From Gordonia malaquae NBRC 108250 (GTDB lineage Bacteria > Actinomycetota > Actinomycetes > Mycobacteriales > Mycobacteriaceae), in the NCBI RefSeq assembly GCF_000344135.1, contig NZ_BAOP01000010.1, positions 62,001 to 126,000 on the forward strand: a DNA stretch of 64,000 nucleotides, in the 5' to 3' direction. The stretch's first letter is position 1. Each line of letters begins with the position of its first letter. Of this stretch, positions 632 through 23,370 are shown one piece after another. The notes under the pieces are model-generated. The model was not told the origin of the DNA. It did no database searches and saw only the letters and a program-made list of their open reading frames with translations. Made by a program: the position numbers and the translations under genes.

Positions 632-3475
632 CTACCCGCTGTTGCGGAGAGCTGTCGCCAGTCCGTTCATCGTCAACTGGATGGCGCGCCGGATCTGTGG
701 TGAGTCGTCGCCTGCGCGGAATCGTTGAAGCAGTTCCACTTGGAGCAGATTGAGCGGTTCGAGGTACGGGAATCTGTTCACGACCGAACGCTTCAGCGCA
801 TCGTTGTCGGCGAGGAGATCGTCGGTGCCGGTGATCGCCGCGCACATCGCGATGGTGCGTTCGTGCTCGTCGACGATCATGGTGAAGACCCGCTCCCGGA
901 GTTCGACGTCGGGCACCAGCTGCGCGTAGCGGTGCGCCAGCCCCATGTCGCTCTTCGCGAGGACCTGCGCCATGTTCGACATGACCGACCGGAAGAACGG
1001 CCAGCGACGGTAGTAGTCGGAGAGAACGGCGAGGCGATCGGGGTCGTCACCGATCCACTCGGCGAACGCGGTTCCCGTTCCGTACCAGCCCGGCAGCATC
1101 ACCCGGCACTGAGTCCACGACAGCACCCACGGAATCGCACGCAGGTCGGAGATCGCGGTGGTCTGCTTCCGCGACGTCGGGCGGCTTCCGATGTTCAGGG
1201 CGCCGATCTCCGACAACGGTGTCGATGCGGTGAAGTACTCGACGAACCCCGGCGTGTCGTGCACCAGTCGCGAGTAGGCGGCACGTGCGGACACGGCGAG
1301 CTCGTCGAACACTCGGTACGCCTCCGCGGACTCGTCACCGAGGCCCTCGACGTCGAGCAAGGACGATTCGAGTGTCGCGGCGACCAACGACTCCAGGTTT
1401 CGCCGAGCCCGGACCGGCTCGGCGTACTTCGCGGCGATGATCTCGCCCTGCTCGGTGAGCCGCAGCGAGCCCTGCACCGCACCCGGTGGCTGCGCGAGGA
1501 TCGCGTCGTAGCTCGGGCCGCCGCCGCGACCGACCGTTCCGCCGCGTCCGTGGAAGAGCCGGAGGCGGATGCCTGCGGCGCGTGCCGCGTCCACCAGGTC
1601 GAGTTCGCCGCGATACAGGGCCCAGTTGGCGGCGAGGTAGCCGCCGTCCTTGTTGGAGTCGGAGTAGCCGAGCATCACCTCGTGGACGTCGCCCTGGGAC
1701 CGGATCAGTTCGCGGTAGAACGGCACACCCAGTGCGGCAGTGAGGATGCCCGCGCCGGCCTGGAGGTCTTCGATGGTCTCGAACAGCGGGACCACTCGCA
1801 CGCTGCACGCCGGTGAGCCGTCGCCCGCATCGAAGAGACCGGCTTCCTTGAGGAGGATCATCGCCTCCAACATGTCCGAGACGGACTGGCACATGCTGAT
1901 GATGTACACCGGCACGGCCTTCGCTCCGAAGCGCTCGACCGCGGCCGCGGCCGCGTGCACCACCCCCAGTTCCTTCACCGCGAGTTCGCTGAGCCGGGCG
2001 TCCGGACTGGTCAGCGGCCTGCGCGACGTGAGCTCCGCGGTCAGCACCGCGACTCGTTCGTCCTCGTCGAGGGACGCGTAGTCGTCACACACGCCAGCCC
2101 ACGCGAGCAGCTCGCCGACAACCTCTTCGTGCGTCTCGGAGTTCTGGCGCATGTCCAGACCCGACAGGTGGAACCCGAAGGTGCGGACCGCCTCACGGAG
2201 AGCCGCGAGACGGTCGTCGGCGATCGCGTCGTCCACGACCGCGCGCAGGGCGGCGTCGATCACGTCGAGGTCGGCGAGGAACTCCGCCGCGTCGGTGTAG
2301 GGCTCCGCTGCTGCCGCGAGAGATCGGTCGGCGGGCGCCACCACATCGTTGCCGAGGGTGACGACAGCCCGCGCCAGCAACCGTGAGCGGACGGCGGTCA
2401 CCGCCGACCGGAACGGCTCGTCGTCCACGCCGTCCGGCGTCTCGGGCGCGTACCCCGCTCCCAGGGCCGTCAGGTCGTCGGTCACTCCACTGATCAGACG
2501 CACCGACATGCTGAGCTCTTGATGCAGGGCGGTGAGCTCAGCCAGGTGATGCCGCATGGCGGTGGCCGCGGCCGCCGACGTCGCCTCGGTCACGATGTCG
2601 CCGGTGACGAATGGATTGCCGTCGCGGTCGCCACCGATCCACGAGCCCATAGTGATGATCGACGTGTCGAGTCGTGCACTGGGGAACGCCGCCTGCAGAG
2701 CTCTCCTGACGTCGTTGTTCAACGACGGGATCACGTCGAAGAACGAGGCGCCGTAGTAGCGGAGACCGGTGGTGATCTCATCGCTGATCGTCAGCCGACG
2801 CATCCGGATGAGCGCCGTCTGCCACAGCATCAGGATGTGACGGGAGATCTCCCGAGTGATCGTCGACTCCTCGTCGGCGGTCAACTCGGTCCGCCCGCGG
2901 ACGCGCATGAGTTCGTTGATGCGGTTCTGTGCGTCGAACACACTCTTGCGACGGGTCTCGGTCGGGTGAGCGGTGATCACAGGAACCACGTTGGCGTCGG
3001 CGATCAACCGATGCACACGCTCGTCGTTCAGCCCGGCGTCGGCCAGTCGGGCGAACGTCGCGCCGAGCGACGACGCCTGCGGCGGGTCCCCGGCGATCAG
3101 ATGAATCCGTCGCCGTCGCTCGCGGTGAAGGTCTTCGGCGAGGTTGGCCAACAGTGCGAAGTTGGTGAACGCGCGGATCACCGGCATCAGTTCCGACACG
3201 TCTCTGCCGGTGTATCGCTCCGCCAGTTCGTCGCGCGACACGTCCTGGTATCGGATGCCGAACGCATCCCTCCGCGAGTCCTCGACGAGGTCGAACACGT
3301 CGTCGCCGGCCTGGGATCGGATCACCTCACCGAGCAGTCCGCCGAGAAAGCGAATGTCGTCACGCAGTGGTTCGGTCGCCGACCGGCCGGTGTCGTCGAC
3401 CCGAATCCGGTCGACCATCGGCGTTGCGATCGCCCGCGCGATCGCTTCGGGATCGTGATGCGGCTCGGGTGTCAT
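632..3475 (-). CDS. ppc: Phosphoenolpyruvate carboxylase
   Basis: Anaplerotic enzyme: PEP plus bicarbonate gives oxaloacetate and phosphate, refilling the TCA cycle. The 947-residue product is of normal family length. Visible signatures are [13 protein letters not shown] (catalytic His, about residue 168), [16 protein letters not shown], the glycine-rich loop [19 protein letters not shown], and a C-terminal asparagine region ending ALRNSG. The ATG at 3475 is preceded by a close GAGGA. The gene diverges from the riboswitch-controlled operon at 3.6 kb and converges on pgl. Its position next to pgl and the tpiA-pgk-gap cluster makes a central-carbon block. Confidence 0.97.
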
Positions 3476-3600
3476 GTCCTCAAGTTACGCGCGTTCGGTC
3501 TCGGCGGCACGGAATGGACAGCACGGCGAATGTACCTCTGCGACTGACGATCCGACAGCTATTCGACTCAGCGTGCGCCTTAGTCTCCGTCTTCGTCCAC

Positions 3601-3745
3601 GGTCGGCTTACGGTCGTATCCGGTTACGAGCGTCAGCGACAAGCCCTGGCTTGCTGGCCGGCAACCCTCCACTGTGCGGCGGGGTGCTCCAGGTGAGAAC
3701 CCGACCGTGCGCTCCCTGCGCCTCGGTAAGCGCAAACCCAGTAAG
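3601..3745 (+). promoter_or_regulatory. SAM-IV-type S-adenosylmethionine riboswitch
   Basis: The leader contains the SAM-IV core almost letter for letter: GGTTACGAG (3622-3630), CAGCGACAAGCCCTGGCTTG (3635-3654), CTGGCCGGCAACCCTCC (3654-3670), then GCGGCGGGGTGCTCC and AGGTGAGAACC. GGTT (3622-3625) can pair with AACC (3698-3701) to close P1, and GC-rich sequence follows for the 3' helix and pseudoknot. A possible -10 hexamer TAGTCT (3581-3586) would start transcription just before it. The Shine-Dalgarno of the first gene (AAGGA, 3743-3747) lies just past the aptamer, so SAM could act on translation or elongation. SAM-IV is known from actinobacterial sulfur genes, which fits the operon downstream. 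The class call is from motif recognition, not a covariance search. Confidence 0.85.
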
Positions 3746-3754
3746 GACTCCCCC

Positions 3755-4738
3755 GTGACTGCTGTCATATCCCCGTCGTCTCCCGGATCGGTCGGCCCCG
3801 TGAACCGTCCGGGCGACGACGATCTCCTCGCCGCGCCGGTAGTCGGCGCACGCCATCCGTGGCAGTGGGTCGGCACCGGCGTTGTGCTCGTGCTGACGGC
3901 GATGCTCGTCCACACGCTCGTCACCAACGACCGGTTCCAGTGGGACGTCGTCGGCAACTACTTCACGAGTTCGTCTGTGCTCAACGGACTGTGGCTCACC
4001 CTGTGGCTGACGGCCGCGACCATGATCGTCGGCTTTGCGCTCGGTGTCCTGCTGGCAGCGATGCGCCTCTCGTCGAGCCCGGTCCTGTCGTCGATCAGTT
4101 TCGGGTACGTCTGGTTGATCAGGTCAGTCCCGCCACTCGTCCAGCTGCTGTTCTGGTTCCAATTGGCGTCGCTGTTCCCCCAACTCTCGATCGGCGTCCC
4201 GTTCGGCCCGAGTTTTGTCACATTCGACACCGCCACACTCATCACCGGGGTGGTCGCGGCTTTCATCGCTCTGACGCTCGACGTCGCAGCCTTCTCCGCA
4301 GAGATCGTTCGCGGTGGACTGCTGTCGGTCGACGAGGGCCAGACCGAGGCTGCGCAGTCGCTCGGCCTGAGCCGTTCGCGGATCTTCTGGCGGATCGTGC
4401 TGCCGCAGGCCATGCCCGCCATCGTTCCGTCCACCGGAAACCTGTTGATCGGACTGCTGAAGGCCACCTCCATCGTGAGCGTGATCGCGGTTGAGGATCT
4501 CCTGTACTCGACACAGCTCATCTACCAGCAGAATTACCTCGTCATCCCGCTGCTCCTGGTGGCGACGGTCTGGTACATTATCCTCACGACCATCCTGTCG
4601 ATCGGCCAGTACTTCGTTGAACGTCACTACAATCGGGGCCGTCGTCGACAGCAGCCGTCGTCGTTCGCTCAGACGTTCCGCGACAACCTGCCGCTGTTCG
4701 GGACCTTTCAGCGCCGCACCGCTGGAGGCGAGGCATGA
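3755..4738 (+). CDS. Amino-acid-type ABC transporter permease, predicted for sulfur amino acids or derivatives
   Basis: Membrane subunit of a polar-amino-acid-type importer (HisM/TcyB class). About six hydrophobic segments are visible, starting near residue 39. The cytoplasmic EAA loop reads EGQTEAAQSLGLSRSRIFWR and docks the ATPase. The GTG at 3755 is chosen because AAGGA (3743-3747) lies 7 nt upstream; an in-frame ATG at 3674 falls inside the riboswitch and would add a spurious leader peptide. The product is 327 residues. The gene is first in the SAM-IV operon and overlaps the ATPase gene by 4 nt. Substrate is inferred only from the riboswitch and the monooxygenase neighbours; cystine, S-alkylcysteine or a related thioether is most plausible. 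Confidence 0.88.
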   Translation: MTAVISPSSPGSVGPVNRPGDDDLLAAPVVGARHPWQWVGTGVVLVLTAMLVHTLVTNDRFQWDVVGNYFTSSSVLNGLWLTLWLTAATMIVGFALGVLLAAMRLSSSPVLSSISFGYVWLIRSVPPLVQLLFWFQLASLFPQLSIGVPFGPSFVTFDTATLITGVVAAFIALTLDVAAFSAEIVRGGLLSVDEGQTEAAQSLGLSRSRIFWRIVLPQAMPAIVPSTGNLLIGLLKATSIVSVIAVEDLLYSTQLIYQQNYLVIPLLLVATVWYIILTTILSIGQYFVERHYNRGRRRQQPSSFAQTFRDNLPLFGTFQRRTAGGEA

Positions 4739-5496
4739 GCCGCCCGCTGGTCCGCGTGCGTGGACTCACCAAATCATTCGGGGCACACCCCGCGTTACGA
4801 GGCATCGACCTCGACGTGAACGAGGGCGAAGTCACCGTGCTCCTCGGTCCGTCGGGATCGGGTAAGTCGACACTGCTCCGCACCGTGAATCACATCGAGA
4901 AGCCCGACGCGGGATTCGTTGAGGTCGACGGCGACATCATCGGCTATCGGCACGTCGGCGGACGCCTCCGCGAACGCCCGTCTCGCGAGATCGCAGCGCA
5001 GCGTGCTCGGATCGGAATGGTCTTCCAGCAGTTCAACCTGTTCGGACACCAGACCGTTGCCCAGAACATCATCGAGGGCCCTGTCGCCGCGGGCGAGTCC
5101 CGTCGCGACGCCCTGCGCCATGCTTCAGAGCTTCTCGAGCGAGTCGGACTCGCCGGGCGCGAAGGCTCGTACCCGCGCCAACTGTCCGGCGGTCAACAAC
5201 AGCGCGTCGCCATCGCCCGGGCCCTTGCACAACGGCCGAGCTTGATGCTGTTCGACGAACCGACCAGTGCGCTCGACCCCGAACTCGTCGGAGAGGTGTT
5301 GTCGGTGATCCGCGACCTCGCCGCCGATGGCATGACGATGCTGATCGTCACTCACGAGCTGGGCTTCGCCCGAGAAGTCGCCGACACCGTCGTGTTCCTC
5401 GAGGACGGCAGGATCGTCGAATCCGGACCGCCCGACGACGTGCTCCTCTCACCGGTCAACGAACGGACCCGGTCGTTCGTGTCGGCCGTTCTCTGA
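4735..5496 (+). CDS. Amino-acid-type ABC transporter ATP-binding protein
   Basis: Energises the importer encoded by its neighbours. The 253-residue product carries Walker A GPSGSGKST (about residues 38-46), a Q-loop region (VFQQFNLF), the ABC signature LSGGQQQR, Walker B LMLFDEP and the switch histidine in VTHE. The sequence is closest in pattern to GlnQ/HisP/TcyN proteins. Its ATG overlaps the permease stop as ATGA, implying translational coupling. Confidence 0.93.
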   Translation: MSRPLVRVRGLTKSFGAHPALRGIDLDVNEGEVTVLLGPSGSGKSTLLRTVNHIEKPDAGFVEVDGDIIGYRHVGGRLRERPSREIAAQRARIGMVFQQFNLFGHQTVAQNIIEGPVAAGESRRDALRHASELLERVGLAGREGSYPRQLSGGQQQRVAIARALAQRPSLMLFDEPTSALDPELVGEVLSVIRDLAADGMTMLIVTHELGFAREVADTVVFLEDGRIVESGPPDDVLLSPVNERTRSFVSAVL

Positions 5497-5540
5497 ACTC
5501 GACTCCCACTCCCTGTTCTTCCTCCTCGAAAGGCTCCACC

Positions 5541-6500
5541 GTGCCCACTTCACATTCCCGACGCCGCTCGGTCCGCTTCGCCTCGGCGACCGCGGCCCTC
5601 CTCGCAGCCGCATCCTTGGCCGTGACTGCCTGCGGTTCGTCCGACGACCCCAGCACCGACGCCAGCGGCGATGCACCCGCCGTGCCCACACAGGACGTCG
5701 TGTCCGGCATCAGGAAGGTCGACGCCATCGCCTCGAAACTGCCGGCCGATGTCCGGTCGGCGGGCAAGCTCACGATCGGAACCATCAAGACTCCAGGACT
5801 CGCGTCCCTTCCCATCGGCGGAGAAGTCGACGGCGAGCCCGTCGGGCTCCACCGCGACCTCACCGACGCCGTCGCAAAGGTGCTCGGCCTCACGGCGGAC
5901 TACCAGTACGGAACGTTCCCGTCGATCCTGCCCGGCATCCAGAACGGCCGCTACCAAGTCGGCCAGGCCAACTTCAGTGTGACCAAAGACCGGGAGAAGG
6001 TCGTCGACTTCGCGACCTTCGTCACCGACGGACAAGGGTTCCTCGGCGCCGAAAAGGTGACACAGGACAAGTTCACGCACATCAGCGACGCCTGCGGGTA
6101 TCGGATCGGCACCGCGCCGGGATCGTCGTTCCAGACTCTGCTCGAACAGAACGCCGACGCCTGCAAGAAGATCGGCAAGCCCGACTGGACCGTCCAGTAC
6201 TTCACCGACTCCGCACCGATCACCCTCGGCTTGCAGAACGGCAAGCTCGACCTCTACTTCGGGCCGTCACTCGCTTTGCAGTACGCGGAGTCGAGGATCC
6301 CCCATACGCGGTATCTCGGTGAGATCTACAAGTCGCCGGTGGGCTTCATCACCGGCAAGGGCTCACCCATCGCACCCGCGATCGTCGACGCCGTGAACGA
6401 ACTCATCACCACCGGCGATTACCAGAAGATCTTCGACAAGTGGAAGGTCCCCGGCAACAAGATCGAGCGATCTGAACTCAATCCCGCCACGACCTTCTGA
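5541..6500 (+). CDS. Family-3 amino-acid substrate-binding lipoprotein of the ABC importer
   Basis: Extracytoplasmic solute receptor for the preceding permease and ATPase. The N-terminus has an Arg-rich start, a hydrophobic stretch and the lipobox VTAC, with Cys31 as the lipidation site. The mature part has the bacterial SBP_bac_3 pattern (KLTIGT, a two-lobe fold, FSVTKDREKVVDFA, LYFGPSLALQYA). Total length is 319 residues. The start is GTG at 5541, with GAAAGG upstream. The 44-nt gap after the ATPase gene keeps it in the operon. The ligand cannot be read from sequence. Confidence 0.9.
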   Translation: MPTSHSRRRSVRFASATAALLAAASLAVTACGSSDDPSTDASGDAPAVPTQDVVSGIRKVDAIASKLPADVRSAGKLTIGTIKTPGLASLPIGGEVDGEPVGLHRDLTDAVAKVLGLTADYQYGTFPSILPGIQNGRYQVGQANFSVTKDREKVVDFATFVTDGQGFLGAEKVTQDKFTHISDACGYRIGTAPGSSFQTLLEQNADACKKIGKPDWTVQYFTDSAPITLGLQNGKLDLYFGPSLALQYAESRIPHTRYLGEIYKSPVGFITGKGSPIAPAIVDAVNELITTGDYQKIFDKWKVPGNKIERSELNPATTF

Positions 6501-6548
6501 CGCGTCGACGTTCTGACGTACACGCGCACAACGAGGAGCCCCACCACC

Positions 6549-7754
6549 ATGACTGATCACTTGCATCTCGCCGTCGCCCTCGACGGCGCGGGCTGGCATC
6601 CCGCCGCATGGCGCGAGTCGCAGGCCCGCCCTGCCGACCTGTTCGACGCCGCCTACTGGATCGACCTCGCCAGGACAGCCGAACGGGGACTGCTCGACTT
6701 CGTCACCGTCGAAGACGCCCTCACCGTCCAGTCGGACGACCCGTTCTCCCCGGACGAACGCACCGACCGGGTACGGGGACGGTTGGATGCGGTCGAGATC
6801 GCCGCTCGTGTCGCGCCGACCACGACCTCCATCGGATTCGTGCCGACGGCTGTCGTGACCCACACCGAGCCGTTCCATCTCTCCAAGGCGGTCGCCACTC
6901 TCGACTACGTGAGCAGCGGCCGGGCCGGGCTGCGGGTCCAGGTCGCTGCGACACCGCAGGCGAACGCCAACGTCGGTCGACGACAGATCCCCGATCTCCG
7001 CATCACCGACGTCGGCACGGACGAGTTCACCGCCGCCGAGTCGGCGTTGTTCGGGGAGGCCGCCGACTACGTCGAGGTCGTCCGTCGCCTCTGGGACAGC
7101 TGGGAGGACGACGCCGAGATCCGCGACGTCACAACCGGCCGATTCATCGACCGACACAAACTGCACTACATCGACTTCGCGGGTGCCGACTTCTCAGTGA
7201 AAGGACCGTCGATCACTCCTCGCCCACCGCAGGGGCAACCGCCCGTCACAGTTCTCGCACATCTGCCCCGTGGCCTGGAGCTCATCGGCGAGTCCGCGGA
7301 CATCGGGCTGATCACTCCGCACACCCAGGAAGAGGCCGCCGACAGTGTCGCGACGATCCACGCCGCCGCGGCGGCAGCGGGCCGCAACGGCGAGACGATC
7401 CATGTGTTCGCTGACCTCGTCGTCTTCCTCGACGACACCGACCACGATGCGCACGAGCGCGTCGCTCGGCTCGACGATGCCGCGGGAGCGGCGTTCCGCA
7501 GCGACGCTCCGGTGTTCGTCGGCACGGCGGCCGGTCTCGCCGACCTGCTGGTCGAGCGTCAGTCGGCAGGGCTCAGCGGATTCCGGCTACGGCCCGGGAC
7601 GCTCCCGACCGATCTCGATCGGATCGTCGACGGTCTGGTCCCCGAACTTCAGCGGCGCGGAGCGTTCCGGTCCGAGTACCCGAAGTCGTCGACCCTGCGT
7701 GGACTGCTGGGGTTGCCACGCCCGACCAACCGCTACGCGACCGCACAGTCGTAG
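6549..7754 (+). CDS. Luciferase-family (LLM) flavin-dependent monooxygenase 1
   Basis: Bacterial-luciferase-like TIM-barrel monooxygenase of 401 residues, probably using reduced FMN and O2. Family features include LDFVTVEDALTV near the N-terminus, TTSIGFVPTAVVTHTEPFH, LDYVSSGRAGLRVQV, and the C-terminal LSGFRLRPG followed by LQRRGAFRSEYP. The pattern is closest to NtaA/SnaA/DszA-type enzymes acting on sulfur or amine compounds, but it is clearly different from the next two LLM genes. GAGGAG (6532-6537) lies upstream of the ATG. It is third from last in a riboswitch-controlled sulfur operon, so a C-S bond cleavage or S-oxidation role is inferred. Confidence 0.85.
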   Translation: MTDHLHLAVALDGAGWHPAAWRESQARPADLFDAAYWIDLARTAERGLLDFVTVEDALTVQSDDPFSPDERTDRVRGRLDAVEIAARVAPTTTSIGFVPTAVVTHTEPFHLSKAVATLDYVSSGRAGLRVQVAATPQANANVGRRQIPDLRITDVGTDEFTAAESALFGEAADYVEVVRRLWDSWEDDAEIRDVTTGRFIDRHKLHYIDFAGADFSVKGPSITPRPPQGQPPVTVLAHLPRGLELIGESADIGLITPHTQEEAADSVATIHAAAAAAGRNGETIHVFADLVVFLDDTDHDAHERVARLDDAAGAAFRSDAPVFVGTAAGLADLLVERQSAGLSGFRLRPGTLPTDLDRIVDGLVPELQRRGAFRSEYPKSSTLRGLLGLPRPTNRYATAQS

Positions 7755-7766
7755 ACAGGAGATTCC

Positions 7767-9158
7767 ATGTCCACCACAGCACACTCCGAACCCGTCAAGC
7801 AGATCCACATCGCCGCGCACTTCCCCGGGGTCAACAACACCACAGTGTGGAGCGACCCGGAGGCCGGCAGCCACATCGAGTTCGACAGTTTCCGCACATT
7901 CGCGCAGGAGGCGGAGCGCGGCAAGTTCGACTTCTTGTTCCTCGCCGAAGGCCTACGGCTTCGTGAGCAGAACGGACAGATCTACGATCTCGACGTCGTC
8001 GGACGACCCGACACGTTCACGATTCTGTCCGCACTAGCCGCCGTCACCGATCGTCTCGGCCTCGCCGGCACCATCAACTCGACGTTCAACGAACCGTACG
8101 AGGTGGCGCGTCAATTCGCCTCCCTCGACCATCTCTCCGCCGGTCGAGCGGCCTGGAACGTCGTCACCAGCTGGGACGAGTTCACCGGAGAGAACTTCCG
8201 GCGCGGCGGCTTTCTCGCCGAAGAGGATCGCTACGGTCGCGCCGAATCGTTCCTGTCCGCCGCGCAGACCCTGTGGGACTCGTGGCGGGACAACGACGTG
8301 ATCGCCGACAAGGCGGCAGGGCGCTTCCTGAGCCGCCCGGACGCGGGGGCATACTCCTACCACGACCGGTTCTTCGACATCGAAGGACGATTCAACGTGC
8401 CGCGGTCCCCGCAAGGTCGACCGGTCGTCTTTCAGGCAGGCGACTCCGACGCCGGCCGCGAGTTCGCGGCGGCTCAAGCCGATGCGATCTTCTCTCGGCA
8501 CGGCGATCTCGAAACGGGCACGAGGTTCTACGCCGATGTGAAGCGGCGGCTGGCCAAGTACGGTCGCCGTCATGACGAACTGCTGATTCTTCCCGCAGTC
8601 ACTTTCGTGCTCGGCGACACCGATGCGGAAGCCGCCGACGCCGCGGCCGAGGTTCGCCTCGCCCAGGTGTCTGCGGCCACCGCGACCCGGTTCATCGAAC
8701 AACTCTGGAACGTCGCACTTCCCGACTTCGACGCCGACGGGTCGTTCCCGTCGTTCGACCCTGTCGAAGGCGAGTCCACGGTGTCCAAGGGACGCGCGAG
8801 CGTCCGCATGCTCGGACGCGAAGCCGCAGAGGTCGCGGAACAGTGGCGGGCCATCGCAGCCGCAGAAGGGCTGTCGGCTCGAGAGGTCGTCGCAAAGGCC
8901 TTCCACCGCGGCGGACTCGTCGGCTCACCGGAGACCGTCGCTCACCAGTTGAACGACCTCGTCCAGTCGGACGCCGCGGACGGCGTCATCCTCGCCCCGC
9001 ACATCACGCCGGGCGGCCTCACCCCGTTCGTCGACAAAGTGATCCCGATCCTGCAGGAGTGGGGAGTCTATCGGACCGACTACGACGGCACCACGCTGCG
9101 AGACCATCTCGGCCTCACGCGTCCCGAACCGACCACCAGCCGAGAGGCCGCCTCATGA
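7767..9158 (+). CDS. NtaA/SnaA/DszA (CmoJ/YtnJ-like) flavin-dependent monooxygenase 2
   Basis: The 463-residue protein has the hallmarks of the NtaA/SnaA/DszA subfamily: AEGLRLREQ near residue 55, the stretch TINSTFNEPYEVARQFASLD, LSAGRAAWNVVTS, and RFFDIEGRFNVPRSPQGRPV. B. subtilis CmoJ (YtnJ), in the same subfamily, is a C-S monooxygenase for alkylcysteine sulfoxides; DszA cleaves C-S bonds in sulfones. A similar reaction is inferred here. AGGAG (7757-7761) sits 5 nt before the ATG, and the gap from the previous gene is 12 nt. The stop overlaps the next gene as ATGA. Reduced flavin must come from a reductase elsewhere, since none is in the operon. Confidence 0.88.
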   Translation: MSTTAHSEPVKQIHIAAHFPGVNNTTVWSDPEAGSHIEFDSFRTFAQEAERGKFDFLFLAEGLRLREQNGQIYDLDVVGRPDTFTILSALAAVTDRLGLAGTINSTFNEPYEVARQFASLDHLSAGRAAWNVVTSWDEFTGENFRRGGFLAEEDRYGRAESFLSAAQTLWDSWRDNDVIADKAAGRFLSRPDAGAYSYHDRFFDIEGRFNVPRSPQGRPVVFQAGDSDAGREFAAAQADAIFSRHGDLETGTRFYADVKRRLAKYGRRHDELLILPAVTFVLGDTDAEAADAAAEVRLAQVSAATATRFIEQLWNVALPDFDADGSFPSFDPVEGESTVSKGRASVRMLGREAAEVAEQWRAIAAAEGLSAREVVAKAFHRGGLVGSPETVAHQLNDLVQSDAADGVILAPHITPGGLTPFVDKVIPILQEWGVYRTDYDGTTLRDHLGLTRPEPTTSREAAS

Positions 9159-10282
9159 CCACCACCGACCTGTCCGTCCTCGACCTCGTGCCGATAACCA
9201 CCGGATCGACGGCTGCCGACGCCCTGCACAACTCGATCGACCTGGCGCAGCAGGCGGAACGCTTCGGTTACCGCAGATACTGGTTCGCCGAGCATCATCT
9301 GAATCCGGGGGTCGCCGGGACATCGCCCGCTGTGGTCTTGGCGCTGACCGCCGCTGCGACGTCGACCATCCGCATCGGTACCGCCGCGGTGCAACTCGGC
9401 CACCGAACCGCCTTGTCGACCGTCGAGGAGTTCGGCCTGCTCGACGCCTTGCACCCGGGCCGCATCGACCTCGGGCTCGGCAGGTCCGGCGGCAAGCCCC
9501 CGAAGGTGTTGGCGACGACGGCTCCTCCGGCTCGCGAGATCGTCGACGGACGGACAGAGAACGGCCTGCGTGTTCCGGAGCCGTTCTCGTTTGCGAGCCT
9601 TCTCGACAATCCTCGAATCGGCTTGATCCAGCGGCTTCTCCAGTTGCCCGGCGCAACCCCGCAGGACTACACCGAACAGGTCGACGACATCCTCGCTCTC
9701 ATCGCTGGGACTTTCCGTGATGAACTCGATCAGGAGGCTCACGTGGTCCCCGGCGAAGGCGCCGACCTGCAGGTGTGGATCCTCGGGTCGAGCGCAGGCG
9801 AGAGCGCGACCGTGGCGGGTACGAACGGGCTTCGATTCGGCGCGAACTATCACGTGAGCCCGGGTACCATTCTCGACGCCGTCGACGCCTATCGATCGGC
9901 GTTCGTCCCGTCCAGAGTCCTCGACCAGCCGTATGTGAGCGTCTCGGCCGACGTCGTCGTCGCACCGACACACGACGACGCGGTCGAGCTCGCCGAGGGC
10001 TACGGGCCGTGGGTCCGCAGCATCCGCACCCTGCAGGGCGCCATCGAGTATCCGACGCCGGCCCAGGCCCGGGCCCTCCCGTGGACCGACGACGATGCGG
10101 CACTCGTCGCCGACCGCGTCGACACCAGATTCGTCGGCACCGCCGTCGAGGTCGCCGACCATCTCGAACGCTTGCGGGATGCGACCGCAGCCGACGAACT
10201 GGTGATCACCACGATCACACATGGGCACGCCGAGCGGGTCCGCTCGTACGAACTGCTGGCCGACGAGTGGGCCCGGCGGTGA
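9155..10282 (+). CDS. Luciferase-like monooxygenase 3 (MsnO8/YtmO-like)
   Basis: LLM-class flavin monooxygenase of 375 residues with the single-domain luciferase-like pattern: LSVLDLVPI at the N-terminus, AEQAERFGYRRYWFAEHHLN-type helix and strand, IRIGTAAVQLGH, and ALHPGRIDLGLGRSGG. This subgroup includes B. subtilis YtmO (CmoO), also encoded next to a YtnJ-type enzyme. The ATG at 9155 overlaps the previous stop (ATGA) and is preferred over upstream in-frame codons lying inside the preceding gene. Translational coupling to both neighbours suggests the three monooxygenases are made together. Confidence 0.86.
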   Translation: MTTTDLSVLDLVPITTGSTAADALHNSIDLAQQAERFGYRRYWFAEHHLNPGVAGTSPAVVLALTAAATSTIRIGTAAVQLGHRTALSTVEEFGLLDALHPGRIDLGLGRSGGKPPKVLATTAPPAREIVDGRTENGLRVPEPFSFASLLDNPRIGLIQRLLQLPGATPQDYTEQVDDILALIAGTFRDELDQEAHVVPGEGADLQVWILGSSAGESATVAGTNGLRFGANYHVSPGTILDAVDAYRSAFVPSRVLDQPYVSVSADVVVAPTHDDAVELAEGYGPWVRSIRTLQGAIEYPTPAQARALPWTDDDAALVADRVDTRFVGTAVEVADHLERLRDATAADELVITTITHGHAERVRSYELLADEWARR

Positions 10283-10971
10283 CGGCTGTCGACACGAGCA
10301 TCCTCGACAATCCTGCTTTCGCGGCGCTCAACGGACCGCACAGCGGGTTCGCCGAACGGGTGGGCGCAGCTGTGCGCTATCCGACGGACGTCTCCCCGTT
10401 CACCGCGATCCCCTCAGATCCGACCGCGGACGACTGGGCCGACCTCGCAACACTCGTCGGGCCGGGCGGAGTGGTCGCGTTCGGCTCGCCGAGCGGGATC
10501 ACACCGCCCACCGGATGGTCGGTTGTGTTCGAGGGCGCCGGCGCCCAGTACGTCGGCGATCGTGTAGAGGCTGTCCGCGACGAACGCAGCGTGGTGCTGA
10601 CCGGAGCGGATGTGCCGGAGATCCTCGACCTCATCGATCGGACCGAACCCGGCCCGTTTCTGGCCCGCACGGTGCAACTCGGCACATATCTGGGCATCCG
10701 CCAGCACGGAGCACTCGTGGCCATGGCCGGTGAACGACTCCGCCTGCCCGGGTGGACTGAGATCAGCGCGGTGTGCACGGACCCCGCAGCACGCGGACAG
10801 GGTCTCGCGTCGGCTCTGGTCCGGCACGTCGCGGCGAACATCGTCGCGACCGGGTCGACGCCGTTCCTCCACGTCGCGGCGGACAACCCCGCCCGACGGC
10901 TGTACGAGGACCTCGGTTTCACTCTCCGCGCCGAAGTGGTGTTCACCGCACTCACCGCCCCCAGCCCGTAG
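10279..10971 (+). CDS. GNAT-family N-acetyltransferase, last gene of the sulfur operon
   Basis: Predicted acetyl-CoA-dependent N-acetyltransferase of 230 residues. The GNAT (FR47-like) fold is in the C-terminal half: EISAVCTDPAARGQGLA carries the acetyl-CoA pyrophosphate-binding motif, followed by HVAANIVATG and the NPARRLYEDLGF motif. The N-terminal 130 residues match nothing I recognise. The GTG at 10279 overlaps the preceding stop (GTGA). In B. subtilis the N-acetyltransferase YtmI acts with YtnJ and YtmO on S-(2-succino)cysteine-type compounds; an analogous N-acetylation of an S-substituted cysteine is inferred here. No deacetylase gene follows. The gene ends at a strong terminator. Confidence 0.85.
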   Translation: MTAVDTSILDNPAFAALNGPHSGFAERVGAAVRYPTDVSPFTAIPSDPTADDWADLATLVGPGGVVAFGSPSGITPPTGWSVVFEGAGAQYVGDRVEAVRDERSVVLTGADVPEILDLIDRTEPGPFLARTVQLGTYLGIRQHGALVAMAGERLRLPGWTEISAVCTDPAARGQGLASALVRHVAANIVATGSTPFLHVAADNPARRLYEDLGFTLRAEVVFTALTAPSP

Positions 10972-11046: not shown

Positions 11047-11283
11047 TCAGCCGCCGAACTTGATGTTCAGGCCGACACCGACGATCAGGATCACCCAGAC
11101 CAGACCGACGAACACCGTCAGGCGGTCGAGGTTCTTCTCCACGACCGACGATCCGGAAAGGCTCGACTGCACGCCGCCGCCGAACAGGGACGACAGGCCG
11201 CCGCCCTTGGCGCGGTGCAGGAGCACGAGCACGATCAGCAGGAGGCTGGTGATGACCAGGCCGATGTTGAGCGCGAGAGTCAC
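11047..11283 (-). CDS. secG: Preprotein translocase subunit SecG
   Basis: Small auxiliary subunit of the SecYEG translocon in the cytoplasmic membrane. The 78 residues form two transmembrane helices (about 5-23 and 55-74) joined by the conserved glycine-rich loop HRAKGGGLSSLFGGG. The length is typical of actinobacteria. It lies downstream of tpiA, as in relatives, but a terminator hairpin separates the two. Confidence 0.95.
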   Translation of the reverse strand: MTLALNIGLVITSLLLIVLVLLHRAKGGGLSSLFGGGVQSSLSGSSVVEKNLDRLTVFVGLVWVILIVGVGLNIKFGG

Positions 11284-23151: not shown

Positions 23152-23213
23152 CGTCTCTCCTTTGCACAGGTGCGCTCGGGACAGACAGATGACGGCACGG
23201 TGCCGCACTGCCG

Positions 23214-23364
23214 TTCTCTCGTATCCGGACTATGACCGTCGGCTCCGGAATCTCACCAGAATCTGCTGACCTCACATCGTGTCCGATGAGAGCGCTCGCG
23301 GGCTCGTCCCTGAGTTGAAGGGCATCACCGCCGGTGGGGACTTTCACCCCGCCCCGAGAACTAC
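23214..23364 (-). promoter_or_regulatory. FMN riboswitch (RFN element)
   Basis: Reading the minus strand from about 23360: TCTCGGGGCGGGGTGAAAGT, CCCCACCGGCGGTGAT, then AGCCCGCGAGCGCTC, GGTGAGATTCCGGAGCCGAC and GGTCATAGTCCGGATACGAG. These are the conserved RFN blocks in order. The first positions of ribE lie about 60 nt downstream, and that stretch contains ACGGCA...TGCCGT, which can form a hairpin that may be part of the expression platform. FMN binding is expected to lower expression of the rib operon. Confidence 0.93.
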
Positions 23365-23370
23365 CTTTCG

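Follow-up and report, generated by a model that had tools for sequence, protein, structure and literature searches.

Bacillus subtilis recovers sulfur from S-substituted cysteines through gene clusters that acetylate, oxidise and cleave their substrates. Its ytm/ytn system combines MsnO8-type and NtaA-type proteins with a GCN5-related N-acetyltransferase (GNAT); CmoO sulfoxidises and CmoJ cleaves N-acetyl-S-alkylcysteines (PMC10863075), and the clusters also carry deacetylases (PMC12757645). The S-(2-succino)cysteine (2SC) pathway of the scm (yxe) genes proceeds through acetylation, cleavage and deacetylation, and unites an acetyltransferase, an NtaA-type monooxygenase and an ABC importer (PMC9706529). 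In Actinobacteria, SAM-IV riboswitches for S-adenosylmethionine (SAM) lie ahead of O-acetylhomoserine sulfhydrylase in M. avium (PMC3774663) and of cysteine desulfurase in S. lividans (PMC8079986). We analysed a 64,000-nucleotide stretch of Gordonia malaquae NBRC 108250 (contig NZ_BAOP01000010.1, positions 62,001 to 126,000; hereafter the window), in which a SAM-IV riboswitch heads a seven-gene operon for an ABC importer, three luciferase-like proteins (FMO1, FMO2 and FMO3) and a GNAT.

The operon shares with ytm/ytn its MsnO8-type and NtaA-type proteins and its GNAT, the last at domain-family level only, and the comparison with ytm/ytn drawn in the preliminary description of this DNA was apt. 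Its GNAT, TIGR03558 and TIGR03860 proteins fit, and the proposed sequence of acetylation, oxidation and cleavage would be common to both systems. We take CmoO to belong to TIGR03558, the family of FMO3, and the ytm operon presumably includes an amino-acid importer as well. In B. subtilis, however, ytm/ytn is presumably under protein regulators. The Gordonia operon differs from it in its SAM-IV control, in an extra degenerate FMO1 and in having no deacetylase, which the B. subtilis clusters have (PMC12757645). The scm system, with which it shares an acetyltransferase, an NtaA-type monooxygenase and an importer, has one monooxygenase and a deacetylase, whereas the Gordonia operon has three luciferase-like genes and no deacetylase (PMC9706529).

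We consider it very likely that the operon carries out organosulfur scavenging under SAM control. Organosulfur salvage is supported because SAM-IV elements recur ahead of the FMO1-FMO2 pair or the importer in Streptomycetaceae and Blastococcus, and because sister elements head metY-metX and a SufS-like gene. Among the papers listed in our literature searches, none gives an importer-flavoenzyme operon as a SAM-IV target. Relative to those papers, this link is new, and so is the pairing of FMO2 with an FMO1 that probably carries no flavin. If this proposal is correct, the SAM-IV regulon would reach beyond methionine synthesis and cysteine desulfurase and take in a pathway that imports and cleaves organic sulfur compounds, and the locus would offer a route to assigning a function to the large actinobacterial FMO1-FMO2 gene pair.

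The SAM-IV leader, its operon and its recurrence

An Rfam covariance search matched SAM-IV (RF00634) over its full length (1-116) at positions 3622-3738 of the forward strand with 89.1 bits (E 1.1e-14) against a gathering score of 38, bearing out the leader that the preliminary description had called SAM-IV-like and had proposed to check by such a search. Across 11 Gordonia SAM-IV elements, including the metY element of the source genome, 48 columns are invariant. Behind the aptamer, a Shine-Dalgarno-like AAGGA (3743-3747) and a GTG start at 3755 constitute a probable translational expression platform (3743-3757, forward strand), with 16 nt between the aptamer end and the GTG. This GTG is most likely the start of the first operon gene, judging from the sequence. 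A GTG occupies the matching position in all six aligned Gordonia leaders (two columns away in L021 and L022), and the aptamer with its closely following GTG is retained in these six leaders at no fewer than three genomic places. Two other starts for the permease gene were set aside: position 3674, from a mechanical open reading frame (ORF) call, lies inside the aptamer, and position 3800 was a scripted choice. We detected no terminator-like site in 3476-3800, which makes translational control likely. The direction of control, with SAM switching the operon off, is taken from SAM riboswitches in general.

Seven forward-strand frames follow the aptamer; neighbouring frames overlap by 4 nt at three junctions and are separated by 44, 48 and 12 nt at the others. 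This confirms the tight packing noted earlier, and profile matches likewise bear out an importer, luciferase-like proteins and a GNAT. The importer comprises a permease of the polar-amino-acid type (3755-4738; BPD_transp_1, PF00528; TIGR01726, 48.6 bits, cut-off 42.2), an ABC_tran ATPase whose nearest named match is the cystine ATPase TcyN (4735-5496; NF008428, 305.8 bits, below the cut-off of 406) and a solute-binding lipoprotein of the SBP_bac_3 family (5541-6500; PF00497, 60.2 bits). The top NCBIfam name of the permease is cystine permease (NF011680, the PRK15100 equivalog), at 120 bits and below the cut-off of 300. Three genes with Bac_luciferase domains come next: FMO1, a degenerate NtaA/DmoA-type protein and probable partner subunit of FMO2 (6549-7754; TIGR03860, 258.7 bits, below the cut-off of 279.7); FMO2, an NtaA/DmoA/CmoJ/DszA-type flavin mononucleotide (FMN) monooxygenase that is probably the C-S cleaving enzyme (7767-9158; TIGR03860, 388.4 bits, above the same cut-off); and FMO3, an MsnO8-family monooxygenase and candidate sulfoxidase in a CmoO-like role (9155-10282; TIGR03558, 295.2 bits, cut-off 166.95). 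The last gene encodes a GNAT with an FR47-like domain (10279-10971; PF08445, 76.1 bits), a candidate N-acetyltransferase of the imported sulfur compound, whose sole PDB match is the putative GNAT 3ec4.

The source genome contains three SAM-IV elements. In addition to the operon, they head metY-metX (NF005872, 807.1 bits, and NF047917, 537.5 bits, both over their cut-offs) and a SufS-like class V pyridoxal phosphate (PLP) enzyme (TIGR01979, 281.1 bits, under the cut-off of 475.1). The genes behind these other two elements match the published kinds of SAM-IV target in Actinobacteria (PMC3774663, PMC8079986).

All 59 Gordonia genomes searched carry one to three SAM-IV elements, and 32 of them encode FMO2 (33 genes at E 1e-100 or better). 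By coordinates, the two occur together in five of the 59 (G000, G044, G052, G016 and G038). In four, the source included, the operon lies behind SAM-IV, and in the version of the fifth, G038, the importer is of the Opp type, genes for a SoxA-like oxidase and a glutathione S-transferase (GST)-like protein are present, and the FMO2 copy is only 54% identical. FMO3 of G038 (L016 4747-5900, reverse strand) reads as two overlapping frames of 276 and 108 aa, either a split gene or a sequence error. The G016 version includes a second importer and another luciferase-like gene. The closest named relative by FMO2 is Gordonia spumicola (87% identity). In five more Gordonia genomes SAM-IV precedes a related importer, but FMO genes are absent. 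Three of them (G026, G030 and G031) also have a GNAT relative, and their importer is more distant, with identities of about 50% for the permease and about 30% for the binding protein; the other two (G020 and G053) have no GNAT and an importer at 57-74%.

Looking beyond the genus, we fetched the best 80 of 105 candidate FMO2 loci from named genomes and scanned them with a model (R1) built from the 11 Gordonia elements. The scan yielded 15 clear SAM-IV elements, spread over 12 of these 80 loci, against an expectation of about 0.3-0.6 from genome density (59 elements in 42 such genomes); because FMO2 loci are related by descent, this enrichment is not an independent test. In seven of the 12, an element stands ahead of the FMO pair, of the operon containing it or of the importer. 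Five of these are from Streptomycetaceae (Kitasatosporales; L070, L081, L104, L110 and L116), one is from Blastococcus (Geodermatophilales; L083), and one is a Gordonia locus (L045, genome G052) whose element belongs, as L014, to the R1 training set. Rfam confirms SAM-IV in all six non-Gordonia loci. In Blastococcus, the genes for the SufS-like enzyme, a DUF1684 protein, FMO1 and FMO2 form a single run behind SAM-IV, and a second element lies ahead of the importer, from which a single 202-aa frame separates it. The element heads a SufS-like gene in the other five loci (L055, L071 and L072 from Williamsia; L122 and L124 from Actinomycetospora), and SufS-like orthologs (53-59% identity) lie behind SAM-IV in all six FMO2 stretches that hold one, Blastococcus included. 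L071 and L072 have a second element, which is directed towards an operon for an ABC importer; its permease falls among Opp-type permeases on clustering.

Short leader ORFs recur in these loci. Those of the RRHIDLQRVAGALCP type precede FMO1 in eight (L061, L070, L081, L089, L104, L110, L112 and L116), RRHVDLLRVSSALCP ORFs precede the same, divergent importer in five (L081, L104, L110, L112 and L116), and several loci have SAM-IV and a leader ORF of the RRH[IV]DL.RV..ALCP type in series. Leader ORFs of the RRHxDL type may sense cysteine or sulfur and are possibly a second sulfur signal. Cysteine-run leader ORFs are described upstream of cys operons in other actinobacteria (PMC1262725).

Among recurring neighbours, clustering places a Cys/Met-metabolism PLP enzyme close to FMO2 in 12 Actinomycetospora loci (two tested with Pfam), and a flavin reductase lies near FMO2 in L104. 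A DUF1684-type protein of about 275 aa stands beside the FMO pair or the importer in eight loci by clustering, four of them Pfam-tested (L070, L081, L083, L098, L104, L110, L112 and L116). In 11 Gordonia loci without SAM-IV (L025, L026, L029, L032, L035-L037, L039, L042, L043 and L106, with L037 and L106 from one genome), the FMO pair has acyl-CoA-dehydrogenase-like genes as neighbours, together with a further group of conserved genes. Weak extra R1 matches of 44-57 bits occur in G012, G007 and G033 (L023 2018-2158, L024 3456-3634 and L017 10515-10627), the L023 match having a major facilitator superfamily (MFS) transporter downstream. The record titled Kitasatospora arboriphila (L068) has a gene string nearly that of Williamsia muralis (L060/L065) and is possibly mislabelled or contaminated.

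The FMO1-FMO2 pair

Of 106 FMO2 genes (97 distinct), 104 (95 distinct) are immediately preceded by FMO1, the exceptions being L123, where the order is swapped, and L074, where no FMO1 was called. Six FMO2 residues (W130, N131, T134, S227, G230 and R231), which we take to hold FMN, are conserved at 0.99-1.0 in FMO2 and are replaced or variable in FMO1 across 102 pairs. The same flavin motifs are present in CmoJ and DszA. FMO1 is also about 60 residues shorter than FMO2 and lacks parts of the region corresponding to FMO2 303-385. The constant pairing and the loss of flavin-motif residues suggest that FMO1 is probably a partner subunit of FMO2 and not a third monooxygenase; the earlier count of three flavin monooxygenases in this operon is thus probably wrong.

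Paired luciferase-like proteins are known from LuxAB and from NtfO1-NtfO2, a heterodimer in which FMN was docked to one chain and the other is without a lid (PMC8027225; PDB 7e36). The shortened FMO1 recalls such pairs, and FMO1 and FMO2 may form a complex of this kind. NtfO1-NtfO2 differs in serving polyketide biosynthesis and in that one chain in the PDB entry is SsuD-like, whereas FMO1 is NtaA-like. We sampled 301 genomes of the family and found FMO2 relatives (E 1e-90 or better) in 143 of them; members of pairs of this type tend to be named nitrilotriacetate (NTA) monooxygenase. If FMO1 is a flavin-less partner, assays on FMO2 alone would miss the real enzyme.

Substrate, proposed pathway and alternatives

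In the pathway that we lean towards, plentiful SAM would fold the SAM-IV aptamer, most likely hiding the Shine-Dalgarno region and turning translation off. When SAM falls, the importer would be made and would take up a sulfur-containing compound, probably amino-acid-like. The GNAT may acetylate this compound if its amino group is free, and FMO3 may then oxidise its sulfur, although the order of these reactions could differ. FMO2 with its partner FMO1 would cut the C-S bond, using reduced FMN from a reductase encoded elsewhere, and the released (N-acetyl)cysteine would be deacetylated by an amidohydrolase also encoded elsewhere; the source genome has two TIGR01891 amidohydrolases above the cut-off outside the operon. 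The sulfur would finally pass to the SufS-like PLP enzyme and to MetY-MetX, whose genes stand behind the remaining SAM-IV elements, and so on to methionine and SAM. As a complete SAM-repressed mechanism, we favour this series of steps by a modest measure.

The substrate is less clear-cut. FMO2 matches CmoJ/YtnJ in the PDB with 273 bits, DszA/BdsA with 247 and an NTA-type monooxygenase with 245, and such near-equal scores do not separate CmoJ from DszA/NTA-type chemistry. The binding protein of the source operon has Gly-Pro at the usual ammonium-binding Asp position, and 16 of 17 aligned operon binding proteins (the exception is L089) have Gly-Pro or Ala-Pro at this position of GlnP-type and ancestral amino-acid-binding proteins. 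In amino-acid-binding proteins this Asp usually grips the ammonium group of the ligand. Its loss speaks against S-alkylcysteine in its free form and would suit a ligand that is N-acetylated or has its amine blocked in another way. We put the chance that S-substituted cysteines, free or N-acetylated, are the main substrate at about even, and S-alkylcysteine is a plausible label and the best single guess. The earlier proposal of an S-alkylcysteine salvage operon under SAM therefore stands in part: the comparison supports SAM-controlled organosulfur salvage, and the near-equal FMO2 scores and the missing deacetylase leave the substrate less firmly assigned. With one operon, one riboswitch and few compounds, the substrate question is directly testable.

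Several further observations weigh against the proposed pathway. No N-acetylcysteine deacetylase family and no flavin reductase was found among the seven operon genes with Pfam and NCBIfam profiles, and both the ATPase and the permease fall under their L-cystine importer equivalog cut-offs. By coordinates, 28 of the 33 Gordonia FMO2 genes have no SAM-IV nearby, and none of the 20 such loci scanned with R1 gave a clear element (best E 0.069). No clear SAM-IV was found in 68 of the 80 named FMO2 loci, among them L089, whose 31.9-bit match is absent from the Rfam results, and 14 loci without a clear element gave no match when searched with all of Rfam. Most FMO2 genes thus lack SAM-IV, and the FMO pair does not need its control. 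In Streptomycetaceae the element lies about 340-430 nt ahead of FMO1 in L070, L104, L110 and L116 and about 450 nt ahead of the permease in L081, in each case with a leader ORF between, compared with the 16 nt of the source. The RRHxDL-type leader ORFs are not specific, as 17 of 30 in the fetched loci precede other genes. Finally, the leader folds no more stably than shuffled sequences (z 0.15) in a prediction that ignores pseudoknots.

The lack of a z-score signal and the many FMO2 loci without SAM-IV would be expected if the riboswitch were an insertion relic without effect on the operon. We regard this as highly improbable, given the aptamers and nearby GTG starts kept in the Gordonia leaders at several places and the recurrence of the association in Streptomycetaceae and Blastococcus. 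A more serious contender, although on balance an unlikely one, is that the operon desulfurises another class of organosulfur compound (sulfones, sulfoxides, sulfonates or thiophene-like compounds), much as DszA, SsuD or SfnG do, with SAM-IV only reporting sulfur need and the importer carrying a zwitterionic or peptide-like sulfur compound. A GNAT is not known to be required in sulfonate systems, whereas a GNAT relative accompanies the FMO pair in 20 of 105 loci (19 genomes) and the importer alone in L018-L020; the importer, moreover, is of an amino-acid family. In Gordonia NB4-1Y, NTA-type and luciferase-like monooxygenase (LLM) genes are expressed more strongly on sulfonates than on sulfate (PMC7661421), and a table of sulfur-related proteins of Rhodococcus IGTS8 includes NTA-type proteins, a cystine-type importer and a SoxA-like protein (PMC8557817).

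Mycothiol chemistry offers two further readings. The source genome encodes the mycothiol S-conjugate amidase Mca (505.3 bits, cut-off 277.15), which produces N-acetyl-S-conjugates from mycothiol adducts. The operon could be mainly a detoxification or repair system that clears S-alkyl or mercapturate adducts from mycothiol trapping electrophiles, sulfur recovery being secondary; Mca and the GST-like gene of the G038 version speak for this, but SAM riboswitch control fits sulfur supply better than electrophile stress, and clearing internal adducts needs no importer, so we find it very unlikely. Alternatively, and with considerable doubt, we suggest that FMO1-FMO2 is a widespread actinobacterial two-subunit C-S monooxygenase with flavin only on FMO2, and that the operon, controlled directly by SAM, recycles sulfur from N-acetyl-S-conjugates (mercapturates, including those made by Mca from mycothiol adducts and exported) into methionine and SAM. 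A binding protein that lacks the ammonium-binding Asp would fit the N-acetylated ligand of this mercapturate pathway.

Insertion between ppc and a secG-like gene

The operon lies between the phosphoenolpyruvate carboxylase gene ppc (632-3475, reverse strand; NF000584, 1117.8 bits, cut-off 815) and a secG-like gene named by eye (11047-11283, reverse strand), on the strand opposite to both. The preliminary description had placed it within a conserved central-carbon block, and this is borne out by ppc directly adjoining the secG-like gene in six of the eight fetched Gordonia genomes without the operon at ppc. One of the remaining two has a single other gene between them, and the other has a four-gene set including an ABC ATPase. 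In G044 and G052 the operon is at the same ppc-secG place; in G016 it lies on the opposite side of ppc, with ppc-secG intact. These varied inserts show that the flanks of ppc take insertions repeatedly. The ppc-secG intervals of G014 and G042 (L133 and L132) hold different inserts, the ABC ATPase being in L133. Elsewhere in the window, we identified an FMN riboswitch (RF00050) at 23209-23365 on the reverse strand, with 98.7 bits.

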